DNA from: Tsukamurella sp. PLM1
GTDB taxonomy: Bacteria; Actinomycetota; Actinomycetes; Mycobacteriales; Mycobacteriaceae
Reading direction: 5' to 3'
DNA length: 64,000 nt
NCBI RefSeq assembly: GCF_023168325.1
Contig: NZ_AP025688.1
Location: 3,038,001 to 3,102,000 of the forward strand
Every line of letters begins with the position of its first letter. Position 1 is the stretch's first letter. Of the stretch, positions 14,943-18,907 are shown piece by piece. The position numbers were made by a program, and so were the translations under genes. The notes under the pieces were generated by a model. That model saw only the letters and a list, made by a program, of their open reading frames with translations. It was not told the origin of the DNA and did no database searches.

Positions 14943-15511
14943 ATGACTCGCATGATCGCCGCCGCGGCCGTCCTGGCCGTGCCCCTGTCCCTCGGCATTC
15001 CCTTCACCACCGCGATCCCCACCGCTTCCGCGGCCGCTCCGGTCGAGGACGCCTCGACCGCCGCCGCCGTGCGCGCCGTCAGCGACCCGTCCGTGGCCGC
15101 CGCGGCGCAGGTGCGCGCGCTGCCCGCCGGCTTCGGCTACCGCGCGGCCGAGGGGCCGGGATACGCGGTGAACCCGCACGGGGAGTGCTCGAGCGTCCTT
15201 CGCCTGCCCGCCGGGTTCACCCCCGCCTGCCGGGCGCACGACCTGGGCTACGACCTGCTCCGGCACGCCGACCGGCTCGGCCGGCCCCTCGGCGGCTGGG
15301 CCCGGAGACTCCTCGACGACGCGTTCGCCGATCGGCTCGCGGCCTCCTGCGCCGCCCAGCCCCTCGAGTCGCGGCGCAGTTGCGGCGAGATCGCCGGGAT
15401 CACCGTGCTCGCGGTGCGCGCCAACACCTGGCGCCAGCACGACGGTCCGCCGCGGGCCGAGTCCGTCGCCGAGCTCGCCGCCGATTGGCTCACCGCCGGG
15501 GCCGGCTGTGA
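14943..15511 (+). CDS. Secreted prokaryotic phospholipase A2; probable frameshift near 15500
   Basis: Residues 1-32 are a signal peptide (MTRMIAAAAVLAVPLSLGIP, cleavage near TASAAA). The mature protein carries the prokaryotic PLA2 signature: HGECSSVLRLPAGFTPACRA with HDLGYD, where His-Asp is the catalytic pair, and further Cys residues (LAASCAAQP, SRRSCGE) for disulfides. As written, the frame runs past its expected end to 15839. Adding one base in the GGGG run near 15500 ends the protein at TGA 15509-15511, which overlaps the GTG of the next gene (15508). That gives 189 residues, a normal length. The product would hydrolyse phospholipids outside the cell. It is divergent from the two-component system. 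Confidence 0.75.
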
Positions 15512-15834
15512 TCACGCGGCCGGCGCCCGGGGTGCTCACCGGTTACGCCGTGGGAGCGGCGGTCGCGCTGTTCCCGAATCAATTGCCGCGCAGCGCTGCC
15601 GTCGCCGCCGCGGTGGCCCTGCTGTTCGGCCTCGTGGGCGCGCTAATCGGACGCGCGGTGGCCCGGCGCCGCGGCGTGGCGCCCTCGTACCGGTGCGCGC
15701 TGTACGTGCTGCCGGCAGCGCTGGTCGGATGGTTGCTGTGGCAGAACCACCTTCGCGCCGCCGCGGGCGTCACCGAGGTGGGTGTCGTGGAGTTCACCGC
15801 GCTCGCCGCGGTGCTCGGCGCCGCGCCGTTCGCC

Positions 15835-15840
15835 TCTAGT
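15835..15840. repeat. Target-site duplication, left copy
   Basis: TCTAGT directly precedes the left end of the IS and is repeated at 16916-16921. It fits the NCTAGN target preferred by IS481-type elements. Confidence 0.9.
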
Positions 15841-15865
15841 TGTACCCGGCCACCACGTTGGTAGC
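15841..15865 (+). repeat. IS terminal inverted repeat, left
   Basis: It begins TGTACCCGGCCACCACG and ends TTGGTAGC. It matches the reverse complement of 16891-16915 except at two central bases. Confidence 0.9.
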
Positions 15866-15886
15866 GGCGTGGCTGGTTGAACGAGG

Positions 15887-15943
15887 GAGAACCTCCGAGT
15901 GGGATGTGGCTTGTCTAAGGCCCACACCAACTCGGAGGTTCTC
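15887..15943 (+). promoter_or_regulatory. Inverted repeat enclosing the transposase ribosome-binding site
   Basis: GAGAACCTCCGAGT (15887-15900) is the exact reverse complement of ACTCGGAGGTTCTC (15930-15943), which contains the GGAGG of the transposase gene and ends at its GTG (15944). In RNA that starts outside the element the two arms would pair and hide the ribosome-binding site. A transcript starting between the arms would escape. The regulatory meaning is inferred. Confidence 0.6.
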
Positions 15944-16903
15944 GTGTCCCACGGTAGTGCCCGGCTGACCGTTCATGGTCGGCGGCTGATCATCAAGCGG
16001 CATCAGGCCGGCTGGCGTCAAGCCCATATCGCGGCGGCGATGGGCGTGTCCCGCAAGTGCGTCAAGACCTGGATCGACCGCCACGCCGCTGAAGGCGACG
16101 CGGGTCTTGTCACGCGGTCCTCGCGGCCACACACGATGCCGACCAAGACCAGCGACGAGGTCGAGCAGAATGTTCTCCGAGCGCGTGCCGAACATCGGGA
16201 CGGCCCGGATGTCCTCGGCCCGAAGGTCGGGGTGCCCGCGAGGACCGTCTCTCGGATCCTGCGGCGGCACAAGGTGCCGTACTTGCGGGAGTGTGATCCG
16301 ATCACCGGCGACGTGATCCGCTCGTCCAAACAGACAGCCAAGCGGTATGAGCGTTGCCGTCCAGGCGAACTCGTGCACATGGATGTCAAGAAGCTCGGCC
16401 GGATCCCTGATGGTGGAGGGTGGCGGGCGCACGGCCGCGGCAGCATCGCCCGCGACCGGAAGGTCAAGCTCGGCTACGACTACATCCACTCCGTCGTCGA
16501 CGATCACTCCCGCCTGGCCTACAGCGAGGTCCTGCCCGACGAGAAGGGCATCACCTGCGCGGCGTTCCTCGAACGAGCCATCGCCTACTTCGCTGCGCAC
16601 GGCATCACCCGAATCGAGCGGCTGATGACCGACAACGCCTGGGCCTACCGGTACTCACTGCGCGCTGTCTGCGCCCGGCACGACATCAAGCAGAAGTTCA
16701 TCAAACCCCACTGCCCGTGGCAGAACGGCAAGGTCGAGCGGTTCAACCGGACTTTGGCGACCGAGTGGGCCTATCGCCGCGTCTACCTCAGCGGCGATGC
16801 CCGCACCTCAGCCCTTGCACCGTGGTTGACCTTCTACAACACTGAACGCCGTCACAGCGCACTCGGAGGCCACCCGCCGACCAGCCGCCTGCTACCAACG
16901 TGA
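15944..16903 (+). CDS. IS481-family transposase
   Basis: This 319-residue DDE transposase is intact. Residues 1-60 contain helix-turn-helix motifs (IIKRHQAGWRQAHIAAAMGV, then SRKCVKTWIDRH). The catalytic core has Asp in ELVHMDVKKLG, Asp in LMTDNAWAYRYS and Glu in NGKVERFNRTLATEW, and ends with the family motif YNTERRHSALGGHPPTSRL. I chose the GTG at 15944 because CGGAGG lies 7 nt upstream; an in-frame start at 15899 has no ribosome-binding site. The protein cuts and joins the ends of this element. Confidence 0.95.
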   Translation: MSHGSARLTVHGRRLIIKRHQAGWRQAHIAAAMGVSRKCVKTWIDRHAAEGDAGLVTRSSRPHTMPTKTSDEVEQNVLRARAEHRDGPDVLGPKVGVPARTVSRILRRHKVPYLRECDPITGDVIRSSKQTAKRYERCRPGELVHMDVKKLGRIPDGGGWRAHGRGSIARDRKVKLGYDYIHSVVDDHSRLAYSEVLPDEKGITCAAFLERAIAYFAAHGITRIERLMTDNAWAYRYSLRAVCARHDIKQKFIKPHCPWQNGKVERFNRTLATEWAYRRVYLSGDARTSALAPWLTFYNTERRHSALGGHPPTSRLLPT

Positions 16904-16915
16904 CGGCCGGGTACA
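16891..16915 (-). repeat. IS terminal inverted repeat, right
   Basis: It reads GCTACCAACG...GGGTACA on the plus strand and is the inverse of 15841-15865 with two mismatches. Confidence 0.9.
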
Positions 16916-16921
16916 TCTAGT
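16916..16921. repeat. Target-site duplication, right copy
   Basis: TCTAGT directly follows the right end of the IS. Confidence 0.9.
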
Positions 16922-17767
16922 GCCCTGGCCGCCGCCACCGCCGCGGCGTGGCGGCGCGCCAAGGTCGGGCTGCTCGCGGCGACAGTGGCCGTGGCCGGAA
17001 TCGCCTGGCCGGCGGCGGCGTCCGATGCGCCGTCCGCCTCGTACGCGGAACGATTCGCCGCGATCGCCACCGCCACGCCGGGCGTCCGGGTGTACGCCGC
17101 CCTGTCCGACGGTGCCTCTCCCACCGAGCGCGCCGCCGTCGCGGTGGACCGCCTGCTCGCCGCGGGCGGCCCGGCCCGGCGCGCCGTCGTCATCGCGGTC
17201 CCCACCGATCCGGCTGGGTGGACCCGCATTTCGTGCGCGGCGTCGAGGAGACGCTCGGCGGCGACAGCGCGATCGTCGCCGTGCAGTACACGCAGATGCC
17301 GAGCTGGCAGTCGTTCCTGCTGCATCGGGCCGCCGCGGCCGCGGCGGCCCGCGCGCTGATCGACGAACTGCACCGAAGGGCACCGTCGACCCCGGTACGG
17401 CTGTACGGGCAGAGCCTGGGCACCGTGGGGGTCGTGGCGGCCCGGCAGCGGGCCGCCCAGGTGGGGCAGCGGGTCGAGGCTGTCGTGCAGGCGGGCACGC
17501 CCGCCGGCGTCCCGGTGACGGGAGTCGCGCAGCTCAACGCCTCCGACCCCGTGGGGATCTGGTCGCCCCGACTCCTGGTCGCCCCGCCGGACCGGACAGC
17601 CTTGGGCGGGCGGACCACGCCGCGCCCGATGTGGCTCCCGCTGGTCTCCTTCGTGCAGGCCACCGTCGACCTGCTGGGCGCGACCGCACCGCCGCCCGGG
17701 CTGGGCCACCGCTACGACGAGCGCCGGGCTCCGCCCTCGTCTCCGACCTCACCGCCCCCGCCCCCAC

Positions 17768-17843
17768 CCTGACTTAACAGCGTTAGCACAGACCACGTCC
17801 TGGGGAAACGCCTGCATCTACTGCTTGCTACTCACCGGTAACC
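17768..17843 (+). repeat. 76-bp inverted repeat, left copy, flanking the DUF559-type gene
   Basis: This copy pairs with 18781-18856. By eye 65 of 76 positions agree, with no gap. Identical blocks are CCTGACTTAACAGCGTTAG (19 bp), CCTGGGGAAACGCCTGCAT (19 bp) and CTGCTTGCTACTC (13 bp); a 12-bp stretch between the first two blocks has diverged. The outer edge overlaps the stop of the hydrolase gene. Confidence 0.9.
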
Positions 17844-17878
17844 AGGCGAGGGAACCGGCGACATCACTCGCGCGTCCA

Positions 17879-18796
17879 ATGGGTATGGGGGCGCACGAGC
17901 ACGAGGTCCGGGTTTCGAGCGAGCTGGTCGCCGAGGTGGGGAGGTATGCGGCGGAGAAGGACTACCGCTGCGTGACTCCGGGGATCCGCGCGCGCCGGAA
18001 CGGGCGCTCGACTTTGGCGGAGTTGGCGACCGCGATGGTGCGGCTGTACCCGGGCCACGCCCTCTGCGGCTGGAGCGCGGCGCGACTGCACCTGCACATG
18101 ATGGCGCAGTCGCGGAACTCGGTCGAGATCATGGGGCCCAAGCAGATCCGGCGCCGCGGCGTGATCAGCAGAACCGCTCAGCTCGATCCGTCCGACGTGG
18201 TGGTGCGGTACGGATTGCCGTGCACCTCGCCGCTGCGGACCGCGATGGACCTCCTGCGGTACGTCCCCGGCGACGAGGCCATCGCCGCGGCCGACCAGTG
18301 CCTGCGCGTGCACGGCAGGCCGGCCACGGCGCACCGTCCGGCGTGGGTCACGCGGCCGCCGATGGCGACGCTCGCGCGGATCGAGGCCGAACTGGAGCGC
18401 CGTGAGTGGTGGCGCGGCGCGCGGATCCGCGAGGTGCTCATGGAGGCCGACGGCCGCGCGCAGTCGCCGTGGGAGACCTTCTCCCGCTTGAAACTCCATC
18501 GAGCGGGGCTGACCACCATGATTCCCCAGGTACCGGTGCTGGACGGCGAATACTTCCTCGATCTCGCGGACGAGACGCACAAGGTCGCGGTCGAGTACGA
18601 CGGAGCGCACCACCGCGAGGGCAAGCAGCACGCGGCCGATGTCGAGCGGTGGAACGTGCTCGAGAACGACCTCGGATGGAACCTCATCATCGTGACCGCC
18701 GGCCCGCTGGTGAACCGCGGCGACATCCTGCTGCGCCGGGTCCGCAAGGCGCTGAGTGAGCACGACTTCGACGCCACCTCGGCTACCAGCGAGTAG
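17879..18796 (+). CDS. DUF559/VSR-like endonuclease-fold protein with AbiEi-like N-terminus
   Basis: This 305-residue protein resembles a common actinobacterial family. The N-terminal part (about 10-130) looks like the AbiEi antitoxin C-domain arrangement (TLAELATAMVRLYPGHALCG with WSAARL, then LPCTSPLRTAMDLLR). The C-terminal part (about 195-300) looks like DUF559, a restriction-endonuclease-like fold: SPWETFSRLKLHRAGL, YFLDLADE, VAVEYDGAHHREGK with the Glu and Asp, RWNVLENDLGWNLIIV. No partner AbiEii toxin is nearby. A 76-bp inverted repeat brackets the gene and includes its stop codon. The ATG at 17879 is the best start; a TTG at 17825 would extend it into the repeat. It may be mobile DNA, a defence gene or a nickase-like repair protein; the function is not known. 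Confidence 0.75.
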   Translation: MGMGAHEHEVRVSSELVAEVGRYAAEKDYRCVTPGIRARRNGRSTLAELATAMVRLYPGHALCGWSAARLHLHMMAQSRNSVEIMGPKQIRRRGVISRTAQLDPSDVVVRYGLPCTSPLRTAMDLLRYVPGDEAIAAADQCLRVHGRPATAHRPAWVTRPPMATLARIEAELERREWWRGARIREVLMEADGRAQSPWETFSRLKLHRAGLTTMIPQVPVLDGEYFLDLADETHKVAVEYDGAHHREGKQHAADVERWNVLENDLGWNLIIVTAGPLVNRGDILLRRVRKALSEHDFDATSATSE

Positions 18797-18856
18797 CAAG
18801 CAGCGGATGCAGGCGTTTCCCCAGGAAGCTGCCTGGACTAACGCTGTTAAGTCAGG
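18781..18856 (-). repeat. 76-bp inverted repeat, right copy
   Basis: This is the reverse complement of 17768-17843 at 65 of 76 positions. Its inner edge covers the last codons and the TAG stop of the DUF559-type gene. Outside it, GGGGCGG-rich sequence (18859-18885) still resembles the inverse of the left flank, so the repeat may be longer than 76 bp. Confidence 0.9.
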
Positions 18857-18907
18857 ACCGGGGCGGCGGGGTGAGGAGCGGCGGGGATTGCCCGCGGCCA
18901 ATTAACC

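Follow-up and report, generated by a model that had tools for sequence, protein, structure and literature searches.

The DUF559/AbiEi-like gene described here and the two inverted repeats around it are, with a probability of about 0.7, one member of an Actinobacteria-wide pairing in which an AbiEi-DUF559 nuclease is accompanied by its own palindromic repeat. Genes and repeats are associated, the repeats are dispersed, their arms pair, and repeat family agrees with protein clade. Our best reading is a partnership like that of REP palindromes and RAYT proteins, with the cognate nuclease coming from an unrelated enzyme family.

A putative nuclease gene lies between two inverted repeats

The gene was found in a window of 64,000 nucleotides, the whole stretch of DNA that was analysed, from a genome assembled as a single contig of 4.39 Mb. 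It is flanked by two inverted copies of a repeat, hereafter F1, which are 89 nt long, 83% complementary and built from three conserved blocks (Table 1). For this locus (L109, taken from the whole genome), the score of the upstream against the downstream flank was 111, while the best of 200 shuffles reached 27, which excludes chance. An earlier note, made from the sequence alone, had described a 76-bp repeat with agreement at 65 positions, and 65 identities were indeed counted in the alignment. Its first and third blocks, of 19 and 13 nt, were recovered as well, whereas the second, given as 19 nt, is 21 nt long, and the half-conserved 12 bp between the first two measure 11 nt with 5 identities. 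The right copy includes the stop codon of the gene, as the same note had it.

Beside the gene, the F1 copies are asymmetric A-B-C units and not strong hairpins, unlike the flanks in many other families described below, which counts against the pairing, and their RNA structure gave no consistent signal over four strands (z from +0.90 to -2.70). A likeness of block A to integron attC sites was considered and dropped, given the spacing of only 3 bp between the half-sites and the inverted orientation of the copies.

Table 1 Features of the repeat-flanked gene and its neighbour, in positions of the window.
Feature	Position	Strand	Remarks
IS481-type transposase gene	15899..16903		neighbour of the DUF559 gene
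F1 repeat, left copy	17755..17843	+	blocks in the order A-B-C toward the gene; inverted-pair search and alignment
Block A, left copy	17768..17786	+	19 nt; holds the dyad TAAC-N3-GTTA; alignment
Block B, left copy	17798..17818	+	21 nt; alignment
Block C, left copy	17821..17833	+	13 nt; alignment
DUF559/AbiEi-like gene	17879..18796	+	open frame, 305 aa
AbiEi-antitoxin-like part, residues 5-191	17891..18451	+	predicted to bind DNA
Vsr/I-Bth0305I-like nuclease domain, residues 196-297	18464..18769	+	from the structure model
F1 repeat, right copy	18781..18869	-	inverted; overlaps the stop codon of the DUF559 gene
Block C, right copy	18791..18803	-	alignment
Block B, right copy	18806..18826	-	alignment
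Block A, right copy	18838..18856	-	alignment

A Pfam search with the 305-aa protein returned DUF559 above the cut-off and MTES_1575 below it, and the PADLOC AbiEi models matched inside residues 31-143. The structure model joins an AbiEi-antitoxin-like part, in which residues 5-191 appear to adopt the fold of the type IV antitoxins AbiEi and Rv2827c, to a nuclease domain whose predicted fold is like that of the homing endonuclease I-Bth0305I (3r3p) and the Vsr repair endonuclease (1vsr). The DUF559 match, the PADLOC models and the modelled fold all point to the endonuclease-like protein with an AbiEi-like N-terminus that had been proposed earlier. Residues E199, D228, Y240-D241-G242 and H245 of the nuclease domain were invariant in all 14 aligned homologues, and the modelled product is probably a DNA-cutting protein. 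The frame of the F1 gene is intact in each of the eight genomes that carry it, and pairwise dN/dS among the eight species ranges from 0.14 to 0.34; to judge by these ratios, the gene is under purifying selection.

The protein differs from AbiEi and Rv2827c in its fused nuclease domain, and in that repeats lie on both sides of its gene and are dispersed. The predicted nuclease fold is consistent with a homing endonuclease. Unlike that of I-Bth0305I, the gene lies outside any intron or intein, and the search for phage relatives was negative: none was present in 50,697 phage records, and none of 14 pattern matches in viral contigs was confirmed as a relative. A phage origin was therefore rejected. 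Six plasmid records contained a match, five of which were inspected; three of the six are T. tyrosinosolvens NCTC13231 records labelled plasmid.

Around the DUF559 gene, the window has an IS481-type transposase gene, an alpha/beta-hydrolase gene, Rrf2, CMD and gatA, and inspection of these neighbours revealed no adjoining toxin gene. The transposase gene is the mobile element that the earlier note had placed next door. It appears to be inserted into the alpha/beta-hydrolase gene (15508-17777), which is unbroken in T. tyrosinosolvens and whose 3' end in the window also seems frameshifted. Because the completeness estimate of the window genome is only 83.9%, some of its indels may be assembly errors.

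The F1 repeat is dispersed in Tsukamurella

A BLAST search with the whole unit covered 41 genomes, from the window genome itself out to its genus, family and order, and some match was obtained in 28 of them. The gene with both repeat ends was recovered in G000, G001, G005, G009, G010, G012 and G015; in G013 most of the unit was matched, and the end copies were confirmed by direct reading. The F1 gene is present in 8 of 16 Tsukamurella genomes and has inverted F1 copies on both sides in all eight. The two-block pattern without mismatch has 2 copies in the window genome, which are the gene flanks. With up to two mismatches allowed, block A gave 12 matches in the window genome (reversed-pattern control, 0) and 103 matches in 12 of the 16 genus genomes (reversed control, 6 across all 16). 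A repeat private to one cassette was ruled out by the dispersed copies that both BLAST and the block A search returned.

Altogether 86 F1 sites were collected: 16 gene flanks from eight genomes, 2 around a DoxX-like gene in G014, and 68 further sites spread over 12 genomes. Half of these 68 are two-armed A-B-A' hairpins of almost constant length, in 31 cases with arm starts exactly 41 bp apart; the remaining 34 have a single A, in many cases followed by B and C. The minimal mobile cassette suggested by the earlier note covers only part of this; its flanks are two members of a dispersed family, and other repeat copies do bracket the homologous F1 gene in every genome that has it, while most copies lie elsewhere.

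When the two flanks are subtracted, 4-15 F1 matches are left in the eight genomes with the gene compared with 0-5 in the eight without it (P = 0.0025, relatedness ignored). Genomes with the F1 gene hold more dispersed repeats; gene and repeat go together. The presence of repeats without the gene in many genomes had been named beforehand as evidence against a cassette, and repeats occur in four of the eight gene-free Tsukamurella genomes.

The positions of these sites bear on the strongest of the alternatives, which we nevertheless judge unlikely, namely that the repeats are autorepression sites of the AbiEi-like protein, the dispersed copies form its regulon and nothing is mobile. In the literature, the operators of AbiEi and Rv2827c are paired 23-bp inverted repeats, 3 and 13 bp apart, through which both proteins autoregulate, and one F1 copy does lie upstream of the DUF559 gene. 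The second copy, however, lies at the stop codon and, according to crude ORF calls, only 9 of the 68 sites are between divergent genes, with 18 in convergent and 38 in tandem gaps, 1 within an ORF and 2 at the edge of a sequence. Since regulon sites should favour promoters, these contexts argue against operators.

Under the REP-like pairing that we prefer, we infer movement of the short palindromes. The F1 gene lies within the abh-gatA block in seven of its eight genomes: between abh and Rrf2 in the window genome (G000), after CMD in G005, G009 and G010, and beside gatA without Rrf2-CMD in G001, G012 and G015, where the G001 copy is inverted. Movement of the whole cassette therefore looks rare, the block being the same and the places within it different. 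None of the block's proteins was found around the gene in G013. By flank similarity, some F1 sites are common to several species and eight have no match to another collected site, the largest clusters having been merged via shared neighbours.

The comparison of strains for an empty site, as the earlier note had proposed, produced none with clean ends; neither a precise empty site nor a target duplication was found at the abh-gatA block, at the Micromonospora site described below or at an F1 site of G015. In the abh-gatA block, the places of the cassette have diverged too far for exact ends, and at the Micromonospora site the element is absent from G054, but nearby intergenic bases are gone too. 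The G015 site (L083, about 1940-2100; C52:240306) is a single F1 element whose flanks match none of the other collected sites. In all 13 other Tsukamurella genomes searched, its variable spot is taken up by 0.7-6.5 kb of other DNA, and the 20 loci fetched there, the longest inserts of which were read in part, contained no F1 element. Four F1 sites are 99.9-100% identical between G005 and T. tyrosinosolvens NCTC13231 and, for that reason, uninformative on movement.

Diverged homologues are often flanked by repeats of their own

Diverged Tsukamurella homologues have different inverted repeats on their flanks, families F2 to F6, with stems that start GATCTTCGGTGCG (F2), ATTGAACACCG (F3), GCAGTAATGGCAGCC (F4), ACATCTTTCGAAGCGTTCTG (F5) and GCGGTTTCGGCG (F6). 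An upstream/downstream inverted-repeat score of at least 35, a limit that was picked, like the loop motifs below, after inspection of the data, was reached by 49 of the 80 DUF559 loci taken from named genomes, as against 0 of 90 neighbouring ORFs; at a score of at least 28 the numbers were 57/80 and 3/90. The 80 loci are not independent, because many are Micromonospora or Tsukamurella. Against the pairing, 31 of them score below 35, including the Chloroflexi loci (L166, L208) and the Dormiibacterota locus (L171), which have no flanking repeat above shuffles. Every repeat-flanked locus of a named phylum is actinobacterial, and L184, from an uncultured bacterium, is flanked as well. A spread to Chloroflexi by way of L184 and L199 was discarded, the titles of the two records reading uncultured bacterium and Actinomycetota. 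Hairpins with a score of at least 12 were present on at least one flank in 71 of 95 non-redundant loci and on both flanks in 37, compared with a maximum of 11 in 60 letter-shuffled windows; L123, with its short flank, and 15 loci duplicating earlier ones were left out of these counts.

The same figures weigh on a further explanation, in which the palindromes are bidirectional terminators made repetitive by recombination and their position beside nuclease genes is incidental. The hairpins predicted for four elements are strong, and the palindromes are extragenic and often stand shortly past stop codons, but the absence of flanking repeats at the limit of 35 from neighbouring genes of the same loci, together with a repeat family that tracks the nuclease clade, makes terminators very improbable.

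For the pairing of each nuclease with its own repeat, dispersal was followed in other families. F3 palindromes are dispersed, with 14 matches in G010 and 9 in G013 (reversed control, 0), and in G010 the F3 gene is flanked by inverted copies of the dispersed repeat. Against the pairing, none of the three protein-profile matches in G013 has F3 flanks. F2, with two solo pairs in G014 and G009, and F4, with one 2-mismatch match outside its gene, hardly disperse. The Micromonosporaceae repeat has 21-187 matches per genome in 17 of 19 genomes, which is high for a regulon of the kind considered above, and 1 and 2 in the other two; five Mycobacterium/Mycolicibacterium genomes gave 0-1, and the reversed control was 0 in 24/24 genomes. 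Its places in Micromonospora, among the matches listed, are mostly opposed pairs 38-39 bp apart. The Mycobacterium repeat was matched 1-14 times in six genomes and 2-3 times in two of Micromonospora (reversed control, 0-1), and its few copies beyond the gene count against the pairing.

Repeat families follow the protein tree

Over the 29 of 43 rows of the protein tree that carried an automatic stem label, stem family required 7 changes, which is as few as 8 labels allow. In 1000 label shuffles the mean was 18.9 changes and the minimum 14, and host genome required 25 changes on the same 29 rows. The 14 rows without an automatic label include L119 and L132, both of which have hairpins with an ATTGAAC stem and belong to the F3 clade. 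The repeat families track the protein tree rather than the host.

That these are ordinary REPs moved by a Y1 transposase elsewhere, with the nuclease gene a passenger between two of them, is very unlikely and the least probable of the alternatives. The architecture is that of REPs beside RAYT genes, and three of the 14 Micromonosporaceae and two of the three Mycobacterium/Mycolicibacterium genomes searched do have Y1_Tnp, but it is absent from 15/15 Tsukamurella (PF01797 profile search, G007 left out; 5 of 14 control genomes positive) and from 11 of the 14 Micromonosporaceae searched, and if the gene were a passenger, one would not expect each protein clade to come with its own repeat family.

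The pairing of nuclease and palindrome was also followed at one orthologous Micromonospora intergenic site in 14 species, 11 of which have palindromes there, with several different stems. The arms co-vary in 8 of 20 pairs, with 27 double-change cells compared with a shuffled mean of 9.6 and 0-1 in slid controls. Likeness between the site and the flank upstream of the genome's own gene is higher than with permuted flanks (P = 0.0006; limited to the seven species with both places, arms entered by hand). Outside this test, the gene-flank stem of G055 is similar to its stem at the orthologous site, and G045, G052 and G058 (3/11) have a site stem unlike the flanks of their fetched DUF559 gene; these three may hold a second repeat family. 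As read from the sequences, the pattern would fit conversion by the genome's current repeat. Shared ancestry could explain part of the likeness between site and flank, and part of the agreement between stem family and protein tree.

Proposed mechanism and relation to known systems

The earlier note had raised the possibility that the nuclease recognises the repeats. Support for this is indirect and comes from the homologues with repeats of their own, the repeat families that track protein clades and the N-terminal fold; we hold it to be quite probable that the protein binds its own repeat. By analogy with the antitoxins, the N-terminal AbiEi-like part would bind the palindrome, which is about 60 bp long, with one protein on each of its two arms. 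The C-terminal Vsr/I-Bth0305I-like domain might cut or nick the DNA in the element or close to it; repair templated by another copy would then bring the element in or overwrite it. We see even odds that such cutting spreads or homogenises the repeats. Cutting of diverged copies and repair from the current version would lead to species-specific stems at the orthologous site. The repeats would spread as short non-autonomous palindromes, mostly extragenic, as REPs do around RAYT genes, and the flanking copies may also control expression of the gene.

As in REP/REPIN systems with their RAYT (TnpA-REP) genes, the gene is flanked by repeats that are dispersed and mostly extragenic, the repeats often form hairpins from inverted pairs (34/68 F1 sites), and separate genes of one genome have separate repeat families. 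The repeats here occur also in genomes without the gene. Unlike RAYTs, which are Y1 tyrosine transposases, the enzyme is of the AbiEi-DUF559 type with a predicted Vsr fold, and the flanked gene matches DUF559/MTES_1575. The CGTC-tagged REPs, likened to the present repeats by description only, are also extragenic palindromes and are reported as apparently lacking a dedicated transposase (PMC3733652); in the main text of that paper, no words start with actinobacter, micromonospora or mycobacterium. The Y1 transposase is the only enzyme family tied to REP palindromes in the literature used here (PMC3116915, PMC7319586, PMC3710099, PMC3733652). Our search for work linking DUF559, MTES_1575 or AbiEi nucleases to REP-like repeats covered open-access PMC papers, among which none was found.

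More tentatively, the repeats could form a separate, RAYT-independent class of REP over the Actinobacteria, in which an AbiEi-Vsr fusion arose from an autoregulatory antitoxin-like protein, its two-arm operator of about 60 bp turned into a mobile palindrome, and cutting with repair homogenises the repeats. This reading is weakened because the stems of 3/11 species are unlike the flanks and because no flanked relative of a named phylum was found outside the Actinobacteria. REP-type palindromes are common bacterial repeats, and a second, unrelated enzyme with matched palindromes would, if true, imply more than one origin of REP systems. Actinobacterial DUF559/AbiEi genes, on which little work exists, would gain a testable role, and the pairing lets protein, binding site and spread be tested directly.

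Loop motifs and compound elements

In favour of the pairing, the hairpins at DUF559 loci, with medians of 60 bp for the span and 17 for the loop, can be set beside the paired 23-bp operators of AbiEi and Rv2827c. The motif ACACGCC, which differs from the GTAG tag of RAYT-REPIN systems and was noticed after the fact, is present in 17 of 108 loops but in none of 216 arms, and in 5 of 2160 random windows; loops with it recur in Tsukamurella, Gordonia, Micromonospora and Agrococcus, although the stems are unrelated. A CGCAGGT-type loop motif was seen in Tsukamurella and Williamsia. In L184 and L199 (the latter an Actinomycetota MAG), a near-identical palindrome, GTTGCTGACTTGTGGCAAC, is present in both flanks, with several copies upstream.

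Some F1 elements bracket other genes, which were named by eye. At the CMD-gatA site of G014 (L052, 4829-6286), two inverted copies enclose the DoxX-like gene, and there is no DUF559 gene there. In the window genome, F1 elements bracket a hydratase and ferredoxin gene pair (L036, 3021-4240; C1:3891632-3892811), and L066 of G010 has two F1 elements at a similar spacing. The F1 elements of L097 and L084 have an additional C-like unit downstream and resemble a short tandem array.
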